From an uncultured Christensenellaceae bacterium (GTDB lineage: Bacteria > Bacillota > Clostridia > Christensenellales > UBA3700), in contig CALWHJ010000003.1 of assembly GCA_944380355.1 (NCBI GenBank), forward strand, positions 62,001-126,000: a DNA stretch of 64,000 bases. Reading direction: 5' to 3'. The notes below the pieces were generated by a model. It made no database searches. It saw only the letters and a program-made list of their open reading frames with translations, and had not been told where the DNA came from. Shown piece by piece: positions 50,061 to 64,000 of the stretch; the first letter of the stretch is position 1, and every line of letters starts with the position of its first letter. The translations under genes were made by a program, and so were the position numbers.

Positions 50061-50741
50061 ATGGCAAAGTACGATGAAAATTTTTTCAAAATCGACGGTG
50101 AAGAAAAAACAGAATTCAAAGTAGACGCTCTTTTATCCCCCGACGAAACTCTTTTGTGGCAAGGTAAACCGAATAAGAAGGCTTTTATCTTGTCTAATAT
50201 CATAAAGATGCTGCCGATAGCTATAATTTGGCTTGCAATCGATACGACTATGATTGTGCTGTTTGCAAAATTCGTGCCCGATATTCCTATTGGAGCAAAA
50301 ATAGGCATTGCTGCATTTTTCGTAATACATTTGGCTCCCGTATGGATATGGCTGTATAACATAGCTACCGCATCCAAAAGACACGCAAACACCGAATACG
50401 CTTTTACGGATAAGAGAATAATTATTAAAACGGGACTGATAGGTATTGACGTCCAGAATATATATTACAGCGAAATAGAAAGCATCAACGTAAAAGTAGG
50501 TGTCGCAGACAAAATGCTTAAGGTCGGTGACATATACATAAAATGCAATGCGCACGCGCAAGTGCTTTGGGACTTGCCTACCCCTTACGCTCTTGCAAAC
50601 AGACTACAGAAAATAGCGCTTGACATAAAGTCCGACATACACTTCCCCAACGCTATGCGTCCCGAAGAAAACAAAGGCTACAAAACAAAATACAAATCGG
50701 ACGTCGATACAAACGTCAATGACGACGACCTGAAATTGTAA
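50061..50741 (+). CDS. Membrane protein with bacterial PH domain (YdbS/DUF304 type)
   Basis: 226 residues. SPDETLLWQGKPNKKAF near residue 26 starts the domain, two hydrophobic spans follow (45-72 and 80-103), and then the PH-like fold: YAFTDKRIIIKTGLIGIDVQNIYYSEI, typical of bPH2/YdbS proteins. The tail is acidic. These proteins are membrane-bound and of unknown biochemical role. Ribosome site AAGGAG. Confidence 0.85.
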   Translation: MAKYDENFFKIDGEEKTEFKVDALLSPDETLLWQGKPNKKAFILSNIIKMLPIAIIWLAIDTTMIVLFAKFVPDIPIGAKIGIAAFFVIHLAPVWIWLYNIATASKRHANTEYAFTDKRIIIKTGLIGIDVQNIYYSEIESINVKVGVADKMLKVGDIYIKCNAHAQVLWDLPTPYALANRLQKIALDIKSDIHFPNAMRPEENKGYKTKYKSDVDTNVNDDDLKL

Positions 50742-54028: not shown

Positions 54029-54051
54029 GCGCCGCTATACGCGCTCGCCTA
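54029..54051 (-). repeat. 23-bp inverted repeat, right end of island 2
   Basis: Perfect inverse copy of 53406-53428. Its TAG is the stop codon of the AAA+ ATPase gene. Confidence 0.9.
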
Positions 54052-55188
54052 CTCCCTTCGAGAAAAGGCTTCGTATATATCCAGCACCTCTGCCGATATG
54101 CTGGGTGGTATCTTATCGAAAGCTTTATCGAACATAGTCTTTGTCAAAGGTATAGGCTGATTGCTGTTGTTGGCTTGAATCTCTTCGAGGGCCAGACGGC
54201 AAGCCTCCTCTATTATACCGCAAATATCAGCGGCGGAATAATAGGACGTGACTACTTCTGCACCTTTGATTTTCTCGCGCGTACGTTTTTCCGTTTCCTC
54301 TGCGATATCGTCTACCGTAATGCCTACAAGCGCGATACCTTTGAGCTTGCTTTCGATTATTGCGCGCTTAGCCGATTTGTCGGGAGGAGTAACGTGTACA
54401 AGATGAGAAAATCTCTTGTATCTGAGATAAGCGGGGTCGATTACGTCGGGACGGTTGGTAGCTGCAATCATAATACGCTTTGAGCCGTCTACGCCGAAAC
54501 CGTTGATACGCTGCAAAAGCTCTGTCGTGACAGCGGCTTTGTAGTCCTTGGTATCCTGACCTCTTTTGCTGAATATAGATTCGCATTCGTCCACAAACAA
54601 AATCGCGCCGTCGGGACAAGCGTCGATTTCCTGGAATATCTGTTTTACTGCCTGCTCGGACTCACCCACGTAGGATTTGAATATGTCCGCAGGCGTAACG
54701 ATGAACAAAGGCAGTTTCATAGCGTTGGCTATGGCTTCGGCAAACATGGTTTTACCTGTACCGGGTGCGCCGTACATCAACATTCCGAGACCGCCCTCGA
54801 TATGATAGTACTTGAGTATTTCGGGATTCTGAGCCATAAATATAAAGCTCCTGACCAAAGCTTTTACGTTGTCGAGACCTTTGACGTCGTCGAGCGTAGT
54901 GTCGGGAATCTTGCTTTTAATGACCGAGCCGTAACTTGCCGCCGCGTCGCTGAGTTGCTTATAAAAAGTCTTGTACTTATCGCTCTGCTCTCTGTCGGCG
55001 CAACGCATAGAAAGCGTGCGGGATATCTGCGCAGCCTGTGAATACTTGCCTCTCAGCTGCATTTTCTCGTCGTCCGACAAATCCTTTTTGTCCTTGCGAC
55101 CGCCTAAAATAGCGCGTATTTCGTCGGTAACCTTTTTAAGTTGTTTTTCGAGCTCTTCTATGCCCTCTTTTTTTGTTTTATCTGTCAT
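54049..55188 (-). CDS. Vps4/katanin-clade AAA+ ATPase with N-terminal helical domain
   Basis: 379 residues from the ATG at 55188 (GAGGAT upstream). Residues 1-92 are helical and charged, perhaps three helices, in the place of a MIT adaptor domain. Residues 95-379 are one AAA+ module: Walker A GAPGTGKT (140-147), pore loop SYVGESE (172-178), Walker B ILFVDE (196-201), sensor Asn245, arginine fingers in LRYKRF (255-260). The end, PPSISAEVLDIYEAF (361-375), matches the C-terminal helix typical of the meiotic clade (Vps4, katanin, spastin). These proteins form hexamers that thread and disassemble protein polymers. Last gene of the operon, 30 bases after a helical partner gene. Its stop lies in a repeat. 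Confidence 0.88.
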   Translation of the reverse strand: MTDKTKKEGIEELEKQLKKVTDEIRAILGGRKDKKDLSDDEKMQLRGKYSQAAQISRTLSMRCADREQSDKYKTFYKQLSDAAASYGSVIKSKIPDTTLDDVKGLDNVKALVRSFIFMAQNPEILKYYHIEGGLGMLMYGAPGTGKTMFAEAIANAMKLPLFIVTPADIFKSYVGESEQAVKQIFQEIDACPDGAILFVDECESIFSKRGQDTKDYKAAVTTELLQRINGFGVDGSKRIMIAATNRPDVIDPAYLRYKRFSHLVHVTPPDKSAKRAIIESKLKGIALVGITVDDIAEETEKRTREKIKGAEVVTSYYSAADICGIIEEACRLALEEIQANNSNQPIPLTKTMFDKAFDKIPPSISAEVLDIYEAFSRRE

Positions 55189-55218
55189 AAATATCCTCAA
55201 TAAATAATTTAGGTATTA

Positions 55219-55959
55219 TCAGACTATATCGTCGATATTTATTTCGCCGTTTTCGCCGTTGCTTGCGCCCGAAGATGCTCCCGCACCCGCCGAAGGCGCG
55301 CTGGAATCATCACCGCTATCGGCGTTTTCTGCCTTATATTCCTCGCGGTATTTCTGAAGCTGTTTTGCAGCTTCGTTCTGATAGCCCGCCATAACGTCGT
55401 TTTGTTTTCCGCCTTTTTTCTGCATTGATTTTTTGAGCTTTTTGTCAAAACTGCTCATAGCAACAAGCATAGCGTCGGCAATCTTTCCGTAGCCCTTTAT
55501 CATATCCATAATGGCTTTCATACGGTTGCTGTTCATTCTTACGAACTTTCTTATTTTGCTTCTTTGCTTGTACCTTCCCCACGCGGTATATCTCTTGTAG
55601 TTTTCGAGGCTCATCATCTCGTCGATAAACTTGAAGGTATCGTCCATTATATTAATAGTCTGCGAAAGCACCTGCATAGCCTCTTTCATCGAGAACATCA
55701 TTCCGACTACGTTCTGCAAACTGAACGTAACGGTATAAAACATCGACAACACTCTCGTGTTGAAGTGGTCGGGGCCGTACTTGTGTTCGCTCTCTACTAC
55801 CTTGCGCGCAAGGTCTTCGACGGACTTTTCGAGCTCCGTCTTCTTGCCCTCGAGTATCTTGTTGTCGAGTTTTCGCATATTCTGCTTTTGCATTTCGCTG
55901 TAAGGATTGTTGAGTCTTTCTCCTCTTTCTCTCTGTCTTTCTCTTGCCATAATCGTCAT
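55219..55959 (-). CDS. Helical protein with C-terminal NGEINIDDIV tail, candidate ATPase substrate 1
   Basis: 246 residues, no known family recognised with certainty. A very basic start (RERQRERGERL), long helices from 20 to 205 with a methionine-rich middle (SMKEAMQVLSQTINIMDDTF; FIDEMM) that by eye recalls the helix-2 region of Vps2/Vps24-type ESCRT-III proteins, then an acidic, serine/alanine-rich disordered linker (205-232), and the tail NGENGEINIDDIV. Basic head, helical core, acidic linker and terminal motif is the ESCRT-III layout. Ribosome site AAGGAG is close to the first ATG; a second ATG four codons on is possible. ESCRT-III homology is a hypothesis. Confidence 0.72.
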   Translation of the reverse strand: MTIMARERQRERGERLNNPYSEMQKQNMRKLDNKILEGKKTELEKSVEDLARKVVESEHKYGPDHFNTRVLSMFYTVTFSLQNVVGMMFSMKEAMQVLSQTINIMDDTFKFIDEMMSLENYKRYTAWGRYKQRSKIRKFVRMNSNRMKAIMDMIKGYGKIADAMLVAMSSFDKKLKKSMQKKGGKQNDVMAGYQNEAAKQLQKYREEYKAENADSGDDSSAPSAGAGASSGASNGENGEINIDDIV

Positions 55960-55983: not shown

Positions 55984-57462
55984 TCACACTATATCCGTGA
56001 TTTGTACTTCGCCGTTGTCCTGTCTCTCCTCTTTTTCCTGTTTGCTCTCAGGCTCGGGCGCGGGCTGCGCCGTCTTGCCGGCATAGCGTTTTCTTCTCGC
56101 TTCCATACGTGCTTTGAGTTCCTGTTTTTCCTTTTCTCTGTCCACCTTGTTCTCTTGTCTGTGAACTACGGACTGCTCCTTTTCCATAACCTTGTTCACG
56201 TTGGCAAATCTCTCGTCAGTCTCAGCCATATGTCTGGTCTGCGTAGCTACGTTTTCCATAATGTTGTCGTAGTAGCTTATTGCCATCGTTATGTCCTCTT
56301 CGCTCGCGCCGTAACTCAATATATCGAGAAACTGTCTGAAGTCGATATACTCAAACATTGTGTAGAAAAGGTTGGGCTCTATCTGCTGATACATTCTGTA
56401 TATAAGCTCGAGTCTCTTGAACTTCGAAAGCAATCTGCGCATAGCAAGCAGATTGTTGTTCATCATACGTATGCTCGAACGGTACTGCTCTCGCTCCATC
56501 TCGCGGATTTCGATATCCTGCTCGAGCATCGTTATCTGCGAATCTGCCTCTTCTTCGAGCATTTCGCCGTTGTCCATCTTGTCTATTATCTCCGATATTT
56601 CCTTTTGCATCTGGGCAATATCGTCGTTGATTTGCTTTACCTTGTCGTAAGACTCGTTTTGCACGTCGAATTGTTCCTCGAAGTCCTTGAGTCTGGAGAA
56701 GAATGCGTCTCCCTTTTCCTTGACCGCCGCTACGCGCGAATAACTGGAAAATACGTCTTCGGTATACTTGACTATATCCTTGTCCTTTGCGTAGTTACGC
56801 TTATTGACCGCCTTGGTAAGCTCCGCCCACTTATCCGCCTCTGAGATTGCTTCCTCGAGGTGCGTATTGACGGTATCGAATACCATATTTCTCCCCACGT
56901 AATCTCTCCACGCAAACAAGCCGTACTTGCTGTCTCCCAAAAGATTAGCCGCGCAGTCCGCAGCGTCTACGGACACGTTGTCGAATACGTTGTTAACCTT
57001 GTCCTTGAGCTGTGAGAGCAAGTCTTTGGAAGCGTTGAGAATACTCTTTTTGTACTCGCTCTTTTCTTCTATTATCATCGAGTTGACGCCCGCAAGCGAA
57101 TCGTCGATGTACGCAATAACTTCTTTTTTGATATCGGGCATATTTTTATCTCCTTTGTAATTTCTGTATTTGTGCAATATTTCCTTTTTCTTTTCGATAT
57201 AATCGTCTAGTTTTAAAGCGGCTTTGTATCCCGAAAGCTTAACGGCTATTTCCGTAAGCTCGTATACGGAGTTTTTGAGCGCAACGTCCATACCGCCTGC
57301 AAAACCTATTTTGAGAAGTCTTTCGATGTCCTCGCGTATCTCGAAAGATAGCCGCTGACACTGATTGCTGTCATAGCCGTTGACTTCTATATCCTTGAAT
57401 TTTCTCGCATAATTGACCTTATTATCGTCGAGTATGCGTATCAGCGCGTCTAATTCTATCAA
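55984..57462 (-). CDS. Long coiled-coil protein with C-terminal NGEVQITDIV tail, candidate ATPase substrate 2
   Basis: 492 residues, no family recognised. Mostly helix: coiled-coil stretches at about 255-330 (QINDDIAQMQKEISEIIDKM; ITMLEQDIEIREMEREQYR) and basic helices near 435-470, then a P/E/Q-rich linker and the tail RQDNGEVQITDIV, almost the same as in the preceding candidate partner. The start is TTG at 57460-57462, which overlaps the upstream TGA stop (TTGA) and has GGAGG ten bases upstream. No signal peptide or membrane span, so it should be cytoplasmic or peripheral. Confidence 0.72.
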   Translation of the reverse strand: MIELDALIRILDDNKVNYARKFKDIEVNGYDSNQCQRLSFEIREDIERLLKIGFAGGMDVALKNSVYELTEIAVKLSGYKAALKLDDYIEKKKEILHKYRNYKGDKNMPDIKKEVIAYIDDSLAGVNSMIIEEKSEYKKSILNASKDLLSQLKDKVNNVFDNVSVDAADCAANLLGDSKYGLFAWRDYVGRNMVFDTVNTHLEEAISEADKWAELTKAVNKRNYAKDKDIVKYTEDVFSSYSRVAAVKEKGDAFFSRLKDFEEQFDVQNESYDKVKQINDDIAQMQKEISEIIDKMDNGEMLEEEADSQITMLEQDIEIREMEREQYRSSIRMMNNNLLAMRRLLSKFKRLELIYRMYQQIEPNLFYTMFEYIDFRQFLDILSYGASEEDITMAISYYDNIMENVATQTRHMAETDERFANVNKVMEKEQSVVHRQENKVDREKEKQELKARMEARRKRYAGKTAQPAPEPESKQEKEERQDNGEVQITDIV

Positions 57463-58604
57463 TTATTTTTATCCTCCTCACATATATCGCTTATGAATTT
57501 CTCTACGGCTTTTTCCATAGACGTACGCTTTTCCATATATCTGAAAACGTCGTCGTCGTAAAATACACTCGCATTGTACTTTTTTGCCGATATAAGTCTT
57601 TTGATATGCGCGTTGTTTTGCGCACTCATACATTTTGCAAAAGCGTTTATCTGACGCTTTTTGAGATATTTGTGTCCTCCCGCGCCGTTGATAAAGCATA
57701 CGTAAATACCGTTGTCGGGACAACCCTCCGCGTACTTTACCAAAGCGTCGGAATTTCTGAATTCGTAAAATCTTCCTTCGACTTCTTTTTCGTCAAAGGT
57801 TTCTGCGATTTTAAGGCGCGTATCTCTGCTTATTCTCTCGGGTACGGAATAACCGTTGCCCAAAGGTCTGAAAAACTTTTGCGCTTCTTGTTTGGTAAGT
57901 CTGAATATTCCCAGAAGGGGTGCTCGTTCCTCGTCGAAACACGACCTCCACGCCACGTATGCCACATCGGCATTATCGTAATCGTGCTTGCCTGTAAGCA
58001 CGTATTCTCCCTCGTCGTATTCTCCGCCGAGCTGCTTTATCTTGTCGAGGACGGATTTTCTCAGCGCGTCCAAATCGACATAGCCGTCAAAGCTGCCTTT
58101 TTTACCGACAGCGCGCGGGGGCTTTTTGAGCATATTTGCAAGACGCCTTGCGCACTCGACTTTGATTTCTCTTATCTCGTCCGCATACGCCTCTCCGTCA
58201 GCGGTTTCGACGCTTTTATGCACGTTGAAACACACCGCTTTGTAATAAAAGTAAGCAACCGTCCAGCGTTCTTCCTCGCTCTTTGTAAAATCTATATAGC
58301 CGTTGTCGTAATAATATCCCATACGCATAAGTGCGGCGGGGTGCGAACGGAAAGCCGCTTCGCTGCAAAGATTTACTGCTCTGTCGAGGTACTTGAATCT
58401 CGTCTGCTTGTCGTCGTCGCGGCGCGTAAGCCACTTGTAAAAATATTCTTCCGACCTGACGTAAAGTTCCTTGTTGAGCGCGTCAATCACAAATTCGCTG
58501 TCAACGCCCGAGAATACGTCCTTTTTACAGTTGGGACAACACCATCTGCCGTCATACAGTTCGAGAGGTCTGATTATTTCAGTATTGCAATATCCGCATT
58601 TCAT
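57459..58604 (-). CDS. Zinc-ribbon protein of unknown function, 381 residues
   Basis: CGYC (3-6) and CPNC (23-26) near the N-terminus form a zinc ribbon. Residues 30-150 are helical with Sel1-like spacing (AALMRMGYYYDNGYIDF), perhaps a few TPR/Sel1 units. The rest is mixed alpha/beta with basic patches. Not recognised further. ATG preceded by GGAGG that lies inside the end of the membrane-protein gene; the stop overlaps the next start. Coupled position suggests it works with the ATPase partners. Confidence 0.7.
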   Translation of the reverse strand: MKCGYCNTEIIRPLELYDGRWCCPNCKKDVFSGVDSEFVIDALNKELYVRSEEYFYKWLTRRDDDKQTRFKYLDRAVNLCSEAAFRSHPAALMRMGYYYDNGYIDFTKSEEERWTVAYFYYKAVCFNVHKSVETADGEAYADEIREIKVECARRLANMLKKPPRAVGKKGSFDGYVDLDALRKSVLDKIKQLGGEYDEGEYVLTGKHDYDNADVAYVAWRSCFDEERAPLLGIFRLTKQEAQKFFRPLGNGYSVPERISRDTRLKIAETFDEKEVEGRFYEFRNSDALVKYAEGCPDNGIYVCFINGAGGHKYLKKRQINAFAKCMSAQNNAHIKRLISAKKYNASVFYDDDVFRYMEKRTSMEKAVEKFISDICEEDKNN

Positions 58605-63270: not shown

Positions 63271-64000
63271 TTATCTGTCCATAGAGAGCATCTCTCTTAT
63301 GTCGGCTACCTTGTCCGCTTCCTTCTCGAGGTTTGCGCAGAAAGACTCGCCGTTGTCGTGTTTGAATTCCCACGCCGCTCTTATGTATGCCGCAAAAGTA
63401 CGCGCTACAACGGGACGCAAATATCCCTTGTTGCCCTCGTCTTCGCACTTGGGACAACGCGCCGCCCATTTTTCGTCAAAAGATATGACGTGCGGTTTGG
63501 GCGAGCATTCGCTGTAATCGCATACCGAACACTGCGCAATGCTTTCCTTGTCGGTACCGAAACGGCACTTTGCGGGACAACCCGCTTTGTATTTGCAATT
63601 GGCGCATAGCGTAGCGAGTTCCACTGCCGTCGTGTGAGGATTGTGGCGGTAGGCATTGATAACCGCGCACTTACCGTCCATCTCACTCTTGAATCTCGAA
63701 CAGTGCAACATTGCGCACAGCTTGCTGCAATAATAATCTCTGTCCCCCTTGTCTCCCGAGTTGCACATCGTGCCCCTCTCTCCTTCGGTCTTGGATATAC
63801 ACTTATAGCCCCCGTCTCCTATGCTCCTTGCGAATACTGTATCGCAAGTCGAACACTTGAATTCGTAGACGTTGATTTCCTCCATAAGCGTACCCTTGGG
63901 GTCGTCCTGTATACATTGTTTTTTTGCAAAACAGTACAGCAGTCCTTTTCTCTTTCTGTACTCGTACTCTTGCTTGGAATAGAGCGCGACTTTGCCGCAG
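63271..64000 (-). CDS. Cysteine-rich zinc-binding protein, 5' end beyond the window
   Basis: The frame is open from the stop at 63271 to the window edge, at least 243 codons; the ATG at 63885 is inside it and lacks a clear ribosome site, and the codons before it keep the cysteine pattern (CGKVALYS, YCFAKKQC). About 20 cysteines in CxxC or similar pairs (CSTC, CSKLC, CANC, CSVC, CPKC) indicate several zinc sites. Function unknown. First visible gene of the ATPase operon, so the operon promoter lies to the right of the window. Confidence 0.7.
   Translation of the reverse strand, partial: CGKVALYSKQEYEYRKRKGLLYCFAKKQCIQDDPKGTLMEEINVYEFKCSTCDTVFARSIGDGGYKCISKTEGERGTMCNSGDKGDRDYYCSKLCAMLHCSRFKSEMDGKCAVINAYRHNPHTTAVELATLCANCKYKAGCPAKCRFGTDKESIAQCSVCDYSECSPKPHVISFDEKWAARCPKCEDEGNKGYLRPVVARTFAAYIRAAWEFKHDNGESFCANLEKEADKVADIREMLSMDR

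Follow-up and report, generated by a model that had tools for sequence, protein, structure and literature searches.

A bacterial AAA+ ATPase of Vps4-like anatomy, encoded beside a tailed partner protein in a conserved accessory operon of the Christensenellales

Introduction

Does a bacterial ATPase that resembles Vps4 work as a disassembly machine of the Vps4 kind, and which proteins would be its substrates? In eukaryotes and archaea, the filaments that cut membranes are disassembled by Vps4 motors, which are ring-shaped, ATP-driven proteins. The question is raised by a gene in an uncultured member of the Christensenellaceae (order Christensenellales; assembly GCA_944380355.1), located in a stretch of 64,000 nucleotides (contig CALWHJ010000003.1, positions 62,001 to 126,000) referred to here as the window. 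A preliminary description of the window had proposed that the gene encodes a bacterial Vps4-like disassembly machine. A survey of the ESCRT system states that homologs of its components can be identified in archaea, whereas in bacteria this holds only for PspA/Vipp1, a branch of ESCRT-III (PMC11188069). Whether bacterial ESCRT-III proteins have an ATPase in the role of Vps4 is a question that two papers leave unanswered (PMC8281802, PMC11746142).

Results

The gene encodes a classical single-module AAA+ ATPase

The gene is located on the minus strand at 54049 to 55188, starts with an ATG at 55188, terminates with a stop codon ending at 54049, and encodes 379 amino acids; an alternative in-frame TTG is present at 55200. 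The preliminary description had assigned an AAA+ protein to this reading frame, and a match to Pfam AAA (E = 1.9e-32) confirms it. The protein consists of an N-terminal domain (residues 10 to 85), one classical AAA module (residues ca. 93 to 340), and a C-terminal helix (residues ca. 361 to 376). Because related proteins with 45 to 99% identity occur in 28 of the 396 sampled genomes of the order, representing 11 of 142 genera, the reading frame is real, far above chance. Among 29 family members, the Walker A sequence GAPGTGKT, the Walker B residues VDE, and the sensor-1 residue N245 are invariant or nearly so, as are R256 and R259 in the arginine-finger region and the pore loop SYVG, already pointed out earlier as SYVGESE. 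With catalytic and pore-loop residues conserved to this extent, the ATPase is expected to be active.

The C-terminal helix had been taken as a mark of the meiotic clade. A PPSIS helix (PPSISAEVLDIYEAF) is indeed present, with a Vps4_C match of 19.6 bits, below the Pfam cutoff of 21.3. Since similar PSxS..L..Y..F helices are found in p97 D2 (ARRSVSDNDIRKYEMFA) and CdvC (RKPSVNQELLKAYE), the helix appears to mark the classical AAA D2-like group generally and is not specific to the meiotic clade. Neither the alignment nor the AlphaFold2 model contains an insertion in the small AAA subdomain at the place of the Vps4 beta-domain; the sole predicted hairpin of the small domain comprises residues 304 to 313, ahead of the SAADI helix. 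The best NCBIfam match is CDC48 (7e-45), followed by CdvC (2e-36), and in a Foldseek search with the whole model, p97 and archaeal Vps4 structures rank close together. A Pfam search detected no extra domains of the FtsH, ClpX, or proteasomal types (protease, zinc-binding, or OB). The ATPase is thus distinct from the FtsH and ClpX types, as previously suggested, and is also not of the phage type, both on this result and on its position in trees away from FtsH.

Trees favor a position on the Vps4 side

In a tree with FtsH as the outgroup, the ATPase family (family A) forms one clade (100/99). It is joined (97/87) by a second ATPase family from the same order, designated system B, whose members are about 31 to 35% identical to P0001 in the AAA region. 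The two families together then group with Vps4 and spastin (99/96), separately from p97 and the VCP-like domains. In a second tree, to which partial CdvC was added and from which four long rows were removed, families A and B, CdvC, Vps4, and spastin are split from Cdc48 and FtsH (100/94). In this tree, the members of system B do not come out as a single group, and an approximately unbiased (AU) test does not reject a grouping of family A with Cdc48 (p = 0.204). Reference letters were taken from PDB alignments. With a long stem, and with Vps4, spastin, partial CdvC, Cdc48/p97 and VCP-like domains, and FtsH as the references, the trees favor placement of the ATPase with Vps4, CdvC, and spastin and not with Cdc48 or FtsH. 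Of the Vps4/katanin clade originally proposed, both trees retain the Vps4 side, but the AU test leaves room for Cdc48.

The N-terminal domain resembles MIT in size and helix number

AlphaFold2 predicts a discrete domain of three helices (residues 10 to 28, 39 to 62, and 66 to 85) ahead of the AAA module, in agreement with the separate helical N terminus noted before. The pLDDT values of this block are mostly 76 to 90; the model was built from an 11-sequence alignment and has a pTM of 0.45, so that its long-range geometry is unreliable. With three predicted helices and about 76 residues, the domain has the size of an MIT domain. The proposal that it might be one stands in these respects, but no Pfam MIT match was obtained in 18 members, and a search of the PDB with the N-domain profile found no MIT domain. 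The best link is an in-register alignment of helices 2 and 3 with the MIT-like domain of system B (hhalign E = 0.004 to 0.009, with low probability). The VPS4B, spastin, and CdvC MIT queries were identical or nearly identical to the PDB chains that they matched.

Archaeal Vps4 proteins are defined by an MIT domain or by nearby ESCRT genes (Makarova et al. 2024, PMC11188069); at the window locus, no MIT match was obtained and no ESCRT genes were recognized in the neighborhood. The ATPase can thus be described as Vps4-like in its anatomy, with trees that favor the Vps4 side, and membership in Vps4 is not established. We infer that it is Vps4-like in its working. Because MIT and ESCRT-III were searched for and neither was found, we do not classify it as a member of an ESCRT system.

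The ATPase gene is the last gene of a conserved operon

Iterated profile searches and contig extension define families that make up an operon of eight to ten genes, with the ATPase gene at the end. The conserved order is Hsp70-like, SNF2, P546, P1000, Z381, C492, (P650, helicase-nuclease), PART, and ATPase. All operon genes within the window are on the minus strand. PART (55219 to 55959) encodes a helical partner of 243 to 246 residues with a low-complexity tail ending in GEINIDDIV, and C492 (55984 to 57462) encodes a coiled-coil protein of 492 residues with a tail ending in GEVQITDIV. Z381 (57459 to 58604) is a conserved protein with an N-terminal zinc ribbon (CxxC...CxxC), P1000 (58607 to 61609) has several hydrophobic segments in residues 25 to 175 followed by a large region with MBG/Ig-like domains, and P546 (61620 to 63260) is a conserved protein with a cysteine motif resembling a zinc ribbon. 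The C-terminal part of an SNF2-family ATPase is encoded at 63271 to 64000 (whole gene, G000:C3:125271-128105), and the Hsp70-like gene follows outside the window (C3:128102-130036). The label Hsp70-like is based on an N-terminal IDLGSD motif and an HSP70 match of a single member (2.1e-4).

P650 and the helicase-nuclease gene are found between C492 and PART in most relatives outside the genus of the window. The latter encodes a protein of approximately 1,500 residues with DUF4011, SF1 helicase, and MTES_1575 nuclease regions (L014, 3625-8184, and orthologs). Both genes are absent from this position in subtype I, which includes the window, and in subtype II the PART gene is directly downstream of the helicase-nuclease gene. 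A distant member, G340, retains Hsp70-like, SNF2, P546, P1000, and Z381. A gene for a bPH_2 (bacterial PH) membrane protein (window 50061 to 50741) is also found near the operon in several genomes of the same genus.

Comparison with PADLOC-DB 2.0 gave matches to models of different systems. The SNF2 protein is nearest to DISARM DrmD and BREX BrxHI (about 2e-30; 1.9e-30), the helicase-nuclease is nearest to the candidate defense model PDC-S37 (1.9e-116 and 7.3e-122), and the ATPase weakly matches IetA. C492 gave a marginal match, and no matches were obtained for the Hsp70-like protein, P546, P1000, Z381, P650, or PART. As a set, the operon matched no described system in PADLOC-DB 2.0, no description of it was found in open-license papers, and we regard it as undescribed.

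The operon is accessory and patchily distributed

At the E value of 1e-45, the ATPase family was not detected in 397 other genomes sampled across the phylum. A symporter gene borders the operon in the window, and the operon adjoins the same gene in several genomes of the genus. G016, a genome of this genus, harbors the symporter gene without the operon beside it and has no ATPase match anywhere in its genome; the operon is therefore accessory. No mobile-element hallmark was seen at the operon. A phage or plasmid origin was considered and rejected: phage and plasmid collections contain no protein match to the ATPase family, and a single locus on a viral contig reaches only 24%. One contig labeled Acholeplasmatales (L020) carries a PART-ATPase pair with 62% identity, reflecting either horizontal transfer or a mis-binned contig.

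PART and C492 share a C-terminal motif

PART is encoded immediately upstream of the ATPase at every locus with upstream sequence, and one locus (L026, in G015) has two PART-type genes at this position. Outside the nearest relative, PART proteins are 19 to 35% identical to that of the window, compared with 63 to 85% for the ATPase, and by this measure PART diverges fast relative to the ATPase. The C terminus of PART is conserved after a Ser/Gly/Ala-rich linker, ending in INIDDIV, ISDIL, NIDDIT, FDDIL, or WGDDIL. The preliminary description had noticed similar tails in the two neighbor proteins, and this similarity recurs across loci: with the window locus included, the motif [DNS][DNST]I[VILTA] is present within the last nine residues of 21 of 26 PART proteins and 5 of 21 C492 proteins. 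It occurs in none of 132 other open reading frames at these loci, and the remaining operon genes lack it as well; as the pattern was chosen after the tails had been seen, the PART count is descriptive, and it is the zero background and the recurrence in C492 that carry weight. In family f16, the N-domain of the ATPase is diverged (it aligns poorly), and the PART tail is changed too (WGDDIL). By analogy with the docking of MIM tails on MIT, we suggest that the tail motif of PART and C492 may dock on the N-domain of the ATPase. C492 proteins of subtype II loci (L014 to L018, L055, L058, L061, and L062) have a different recurring tail, LS[DE]xDK/L, which is possibly a second docking peptide.

PART and C492 are not recognizable as ESCRT-III

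Pfam searches with PART and C492 revealed no match to Snf7 or PspA. PART has no predicted membrane span, and its structural model is poor (pLDDT of 62), beginning with helices at residues 16 to 58 and 63 to 120. No known fold was recognized for it, as the Pfam search, a profile search against the PDB, and Foldseek all lacked significant matches; the best Foldseek matches were BAR/eisosome proteins (E = 0.45 to 1.1), with IST1/CHMP1B at E = 5 to 7.

Direct comparison of PART with the ESCRT-III proteins of system B gave hhalign E values of 0.006 to 0.0074 with a probability of 6%. In a matrix of 28 pairs of operon profiles, the three best values were those for PART and C492 (0.0071), PART and system B ESCRT-III (0.0074), and the N-domain and MIT (0.009); each value comes from a single pair and has a probability of about 5%, and the links stand out only slightly. 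Column-shuffled controls were also passed, but shuffling destroys helix periodicity, and we relied instead on the cross-matrix.

No PspA was found in the genome of the window, and a six-frame search found no Snf7, although this search is insensitive, having missed Snf7-like members of system B. PspA was thereby rejected as a substrate of the ATPase, and because neither PspA nor Snf7 was found, a role in PspA/Vipp1 disassembly is unlikely here.

System B has MIT-like and Snf7-like components

The N-domain of system B matches 2mpk (chitin synthase 1), which we take to be an MIT domain, with an E value of 0.0019 in a profile search. In many system B loci, a protein of 190 to 200 residues is encoded directly upstream of the ATPase. 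A match to Pfam Snf7 was obtained for 6 of 13 members, with 2.8e-8 as the best value; the corresponding profile had no match in the PDB. We read the ends of these Snf7-like proteins, such as IDKELAEIRKKI, as MIM1-like. A second Snf7-like reading frame and an SPFH/zinc-ribbon gene are found alongside, and BrxL is present in several loci (4e-201 for L032). The loci include L030 (6077-7864), L031 (7187-8929), L032 (5194-9342), L028 (4739-7582), L088, and L090 to L095. SPFH genes with zinc ribbons also occur in archaeal Meth_adaptin ESCRT loci (PMC11188069). System B is thus a candidate bacterial ESCRT-III/Vps4 system, with a stronger case than the operon of the window.

Some system B ATPases have two AAA domains, the first with AAA_lid_6 (CbbX/SpoVK type) and the second classical and Vps4-like, as identified with Pfam for L029 (3720-5762) and by length for L097 to L099, L102, and L104. 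Visual inspection also suggests that many system B loci encode a small protein in which a zinc ribbon is combined with a trypsin-like domain (SGSGF...EGMNxAIP), as in L124 (7967-8728), L099 (744-1469), and L101 (650-1462).

Families A and B are nearest relatives in the tree and agree in gene order, in that the gene immediately before that of the ATPase encodes a small helical protein. System B differs by its Snf7-like partners, its MIT-like N-domain, the SPFH and BrxL genes, and MIM1-like tails in place of the IDDI tails of family A. Both kinds of systems are present in G008 and G015. The occurrence of MIT-like and Snf7-like parts with a related ATPase makes the earlier proposal for the window more credible.

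Discussion

Our results favor, with a probability of roughly 55%, the view that the ATPase is a single-ring unfoldase of the Vps4 type that remodels an assembly of PART and C492 through their tails, within a conserved accessory operon that is probably an anti-invader system. In this mechanism, the N-domains of a hexamer would dock PART and C492 by their C-terminal tails, the docked tails would be fed to the SYVG pore loops, and subunits would be pulled out through the pore, so that the assembly would be dismantled or recycled in the fashion of Vps4. More tentatively, the assembly might lie near the membrane through P1000 and might serve an ATP-hungry anti-invader machine with the SNF2 and Hsp70-like partners. 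The DNA-facing parts of that machine would be the SNF2 ATPase together with, in most relatives from other genera, the SF1 helicase-nuclease. We infer the docking, the polymer, the membrane link, and the defense role, and no sign of filament formation was seen. The defense reading is based on helicase similarity and patchy occurrence; an anti-invader role is plausible because the SNF2 protein is near DrmD/BrxHI and the helicase-nuclease is near PDC-S37. The recurrent symporter neighbor within the genus of the window and the lack of a mobile-element hallmark count against this role. The wider operon suggests a machine that acts against invaders or is linked to the membrane, and not a housekeeping ESCRT. 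Of the disassembly machine first proposed, the Vps4-side trees and the shared neighbor tails speak in its favor, and the lack of a recognizable MIT domain and ESCRT-III speaks against it.

A true bacterial ESCRT-III/Vps4 pair, in which the N-domain is a diverged MIT, PART and C492 are diverged ESCRT-III proteins with MIM-like tails, and the whole is a membrane-remodeling ESCRT beyond sequence recognition, is possible, but we consider it rather doubtful. The closest bacterial relatives, those of system B, have an MIT-like N-domain and Snf7-like genes upstream, and the PART model opens with two helices. Moreover, the hhalign values linking the N-domain to MIT and PART to ESCRT-III are among the best of the 28 cross-comparisons, lie in the range seen when the two system B ESCRT-III paralogs are compared with each other, and exceed all shuffles. 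However, the single-pair probabilities are 2.5 to 8%, PART lacks a Snf7 match and the N-domain an MIT match, the fold search with PART ranks BAR/eisosome proteins ahead of IST1/CHMP1B, and the basic block of PART is in its middle, unlike the basic first helix of ESCRT-III.

A broader idea, equally doubtful in our view, is that the order harbors two related Vps4-driven machines. System B would combine an MIT-like Vps4 with Snf7-type ESCRT-III and BrxL. The operon of the window (system A) would be a diverged form: a Vps4-like ring would dismantle the ESCRT-III-like tailed proteins PART and C492, and this activity would be tied to SNF2 and SF1 helicases in defense against invaders. If true, ESCRT-type remodeling would be part of bacterial immunity.

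It is unlikely that the ATPase is instead a conformational switch for a conflict system, which would unfold PART so that the helicase-nuclease is reset or licensed without a filament, as TRIP13 acts on HORMA proteins. The weak matches to the PADLOC IetA model and the TRIP13 model, the position of PART directly behind the helicase-nuclease gene in subtype II, and the patchy occurrence are consistent with such a switch, but the IetA and TRIP13 scores are also consistent with general similarity among classical AAA proteins, and subtype I, including the window, has no helicase-nuclease gene next to PART. A segregase or disaggregase like Cdc48/p97, acting with the Hsp70-like protein on many substrates, would accord with the NCBIfam ranking, the AU test, and the Hsp70-like gene, but is very unlikely given the single AAA module without a Cdc48 N-domain, the preference of the trees for the Vps4 side, and a dedicated neighbor with a conserved tail, which argues for a specific client.

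Remodeling of PART and C492 by a Vps4-type unfoldase remains the reading that we favor. With a bacterial ATPase family near Vps4 that has a tailed partner of its own, and a sister family that retains MIT-like and Snf7-like parts, the question of a bacterial Vps4 can now be tested on specific groups of genes. In itself, the conserved operon, eight to ten genes long, is a candidate defense or envelope system with no whole match in PADLOC-DB.

Among known systems, IetA of IetAS and TRIP13, both anti-phage AAA+ proteins, resemble the ATPase in having a classical AAA-like single module and a putative defense setting; they differ in that the profile matches are weak and that neither an IetS-like protease nor a HORMA protein was recognized in the operon of the window. 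One survey describes VPS4-like ATPases that bacteria acquired by transfer, in loci where a TPR/6TM protein has taken the place of snf7 (for example, ACB74714.1; PMC11237479). Like the ATPase of the window, these are bacterial proteins without a Snf7 neighbor, but by description their partner combines TPR and 6TM regions, whereas PART is helical and tailed, has no predicted membrane span, and belongs to a long operon. In comparison with Vps4 and CdvC (PDB 4lcb, 4d82, 2zam, and 6bmf), the N-domain is unrecognizable as MIT, no Vps4 beta-domain was seen, the neighbor is unrecognizable as ESCRT-III, and the operon includes SNF2, Hsp70-like, and zinc-ribbon genes. The proteins nevertheless have in common a single classical AAA module, a pore loop of the K/S-aromatic-hydrophobic-G type, the PSxS..L..Y..F helix, a three-helix N-domain, an adjacent gene whose product ends in an acidic C-terminal motif, and, as favored by the trees, a position on the Vps4 side.
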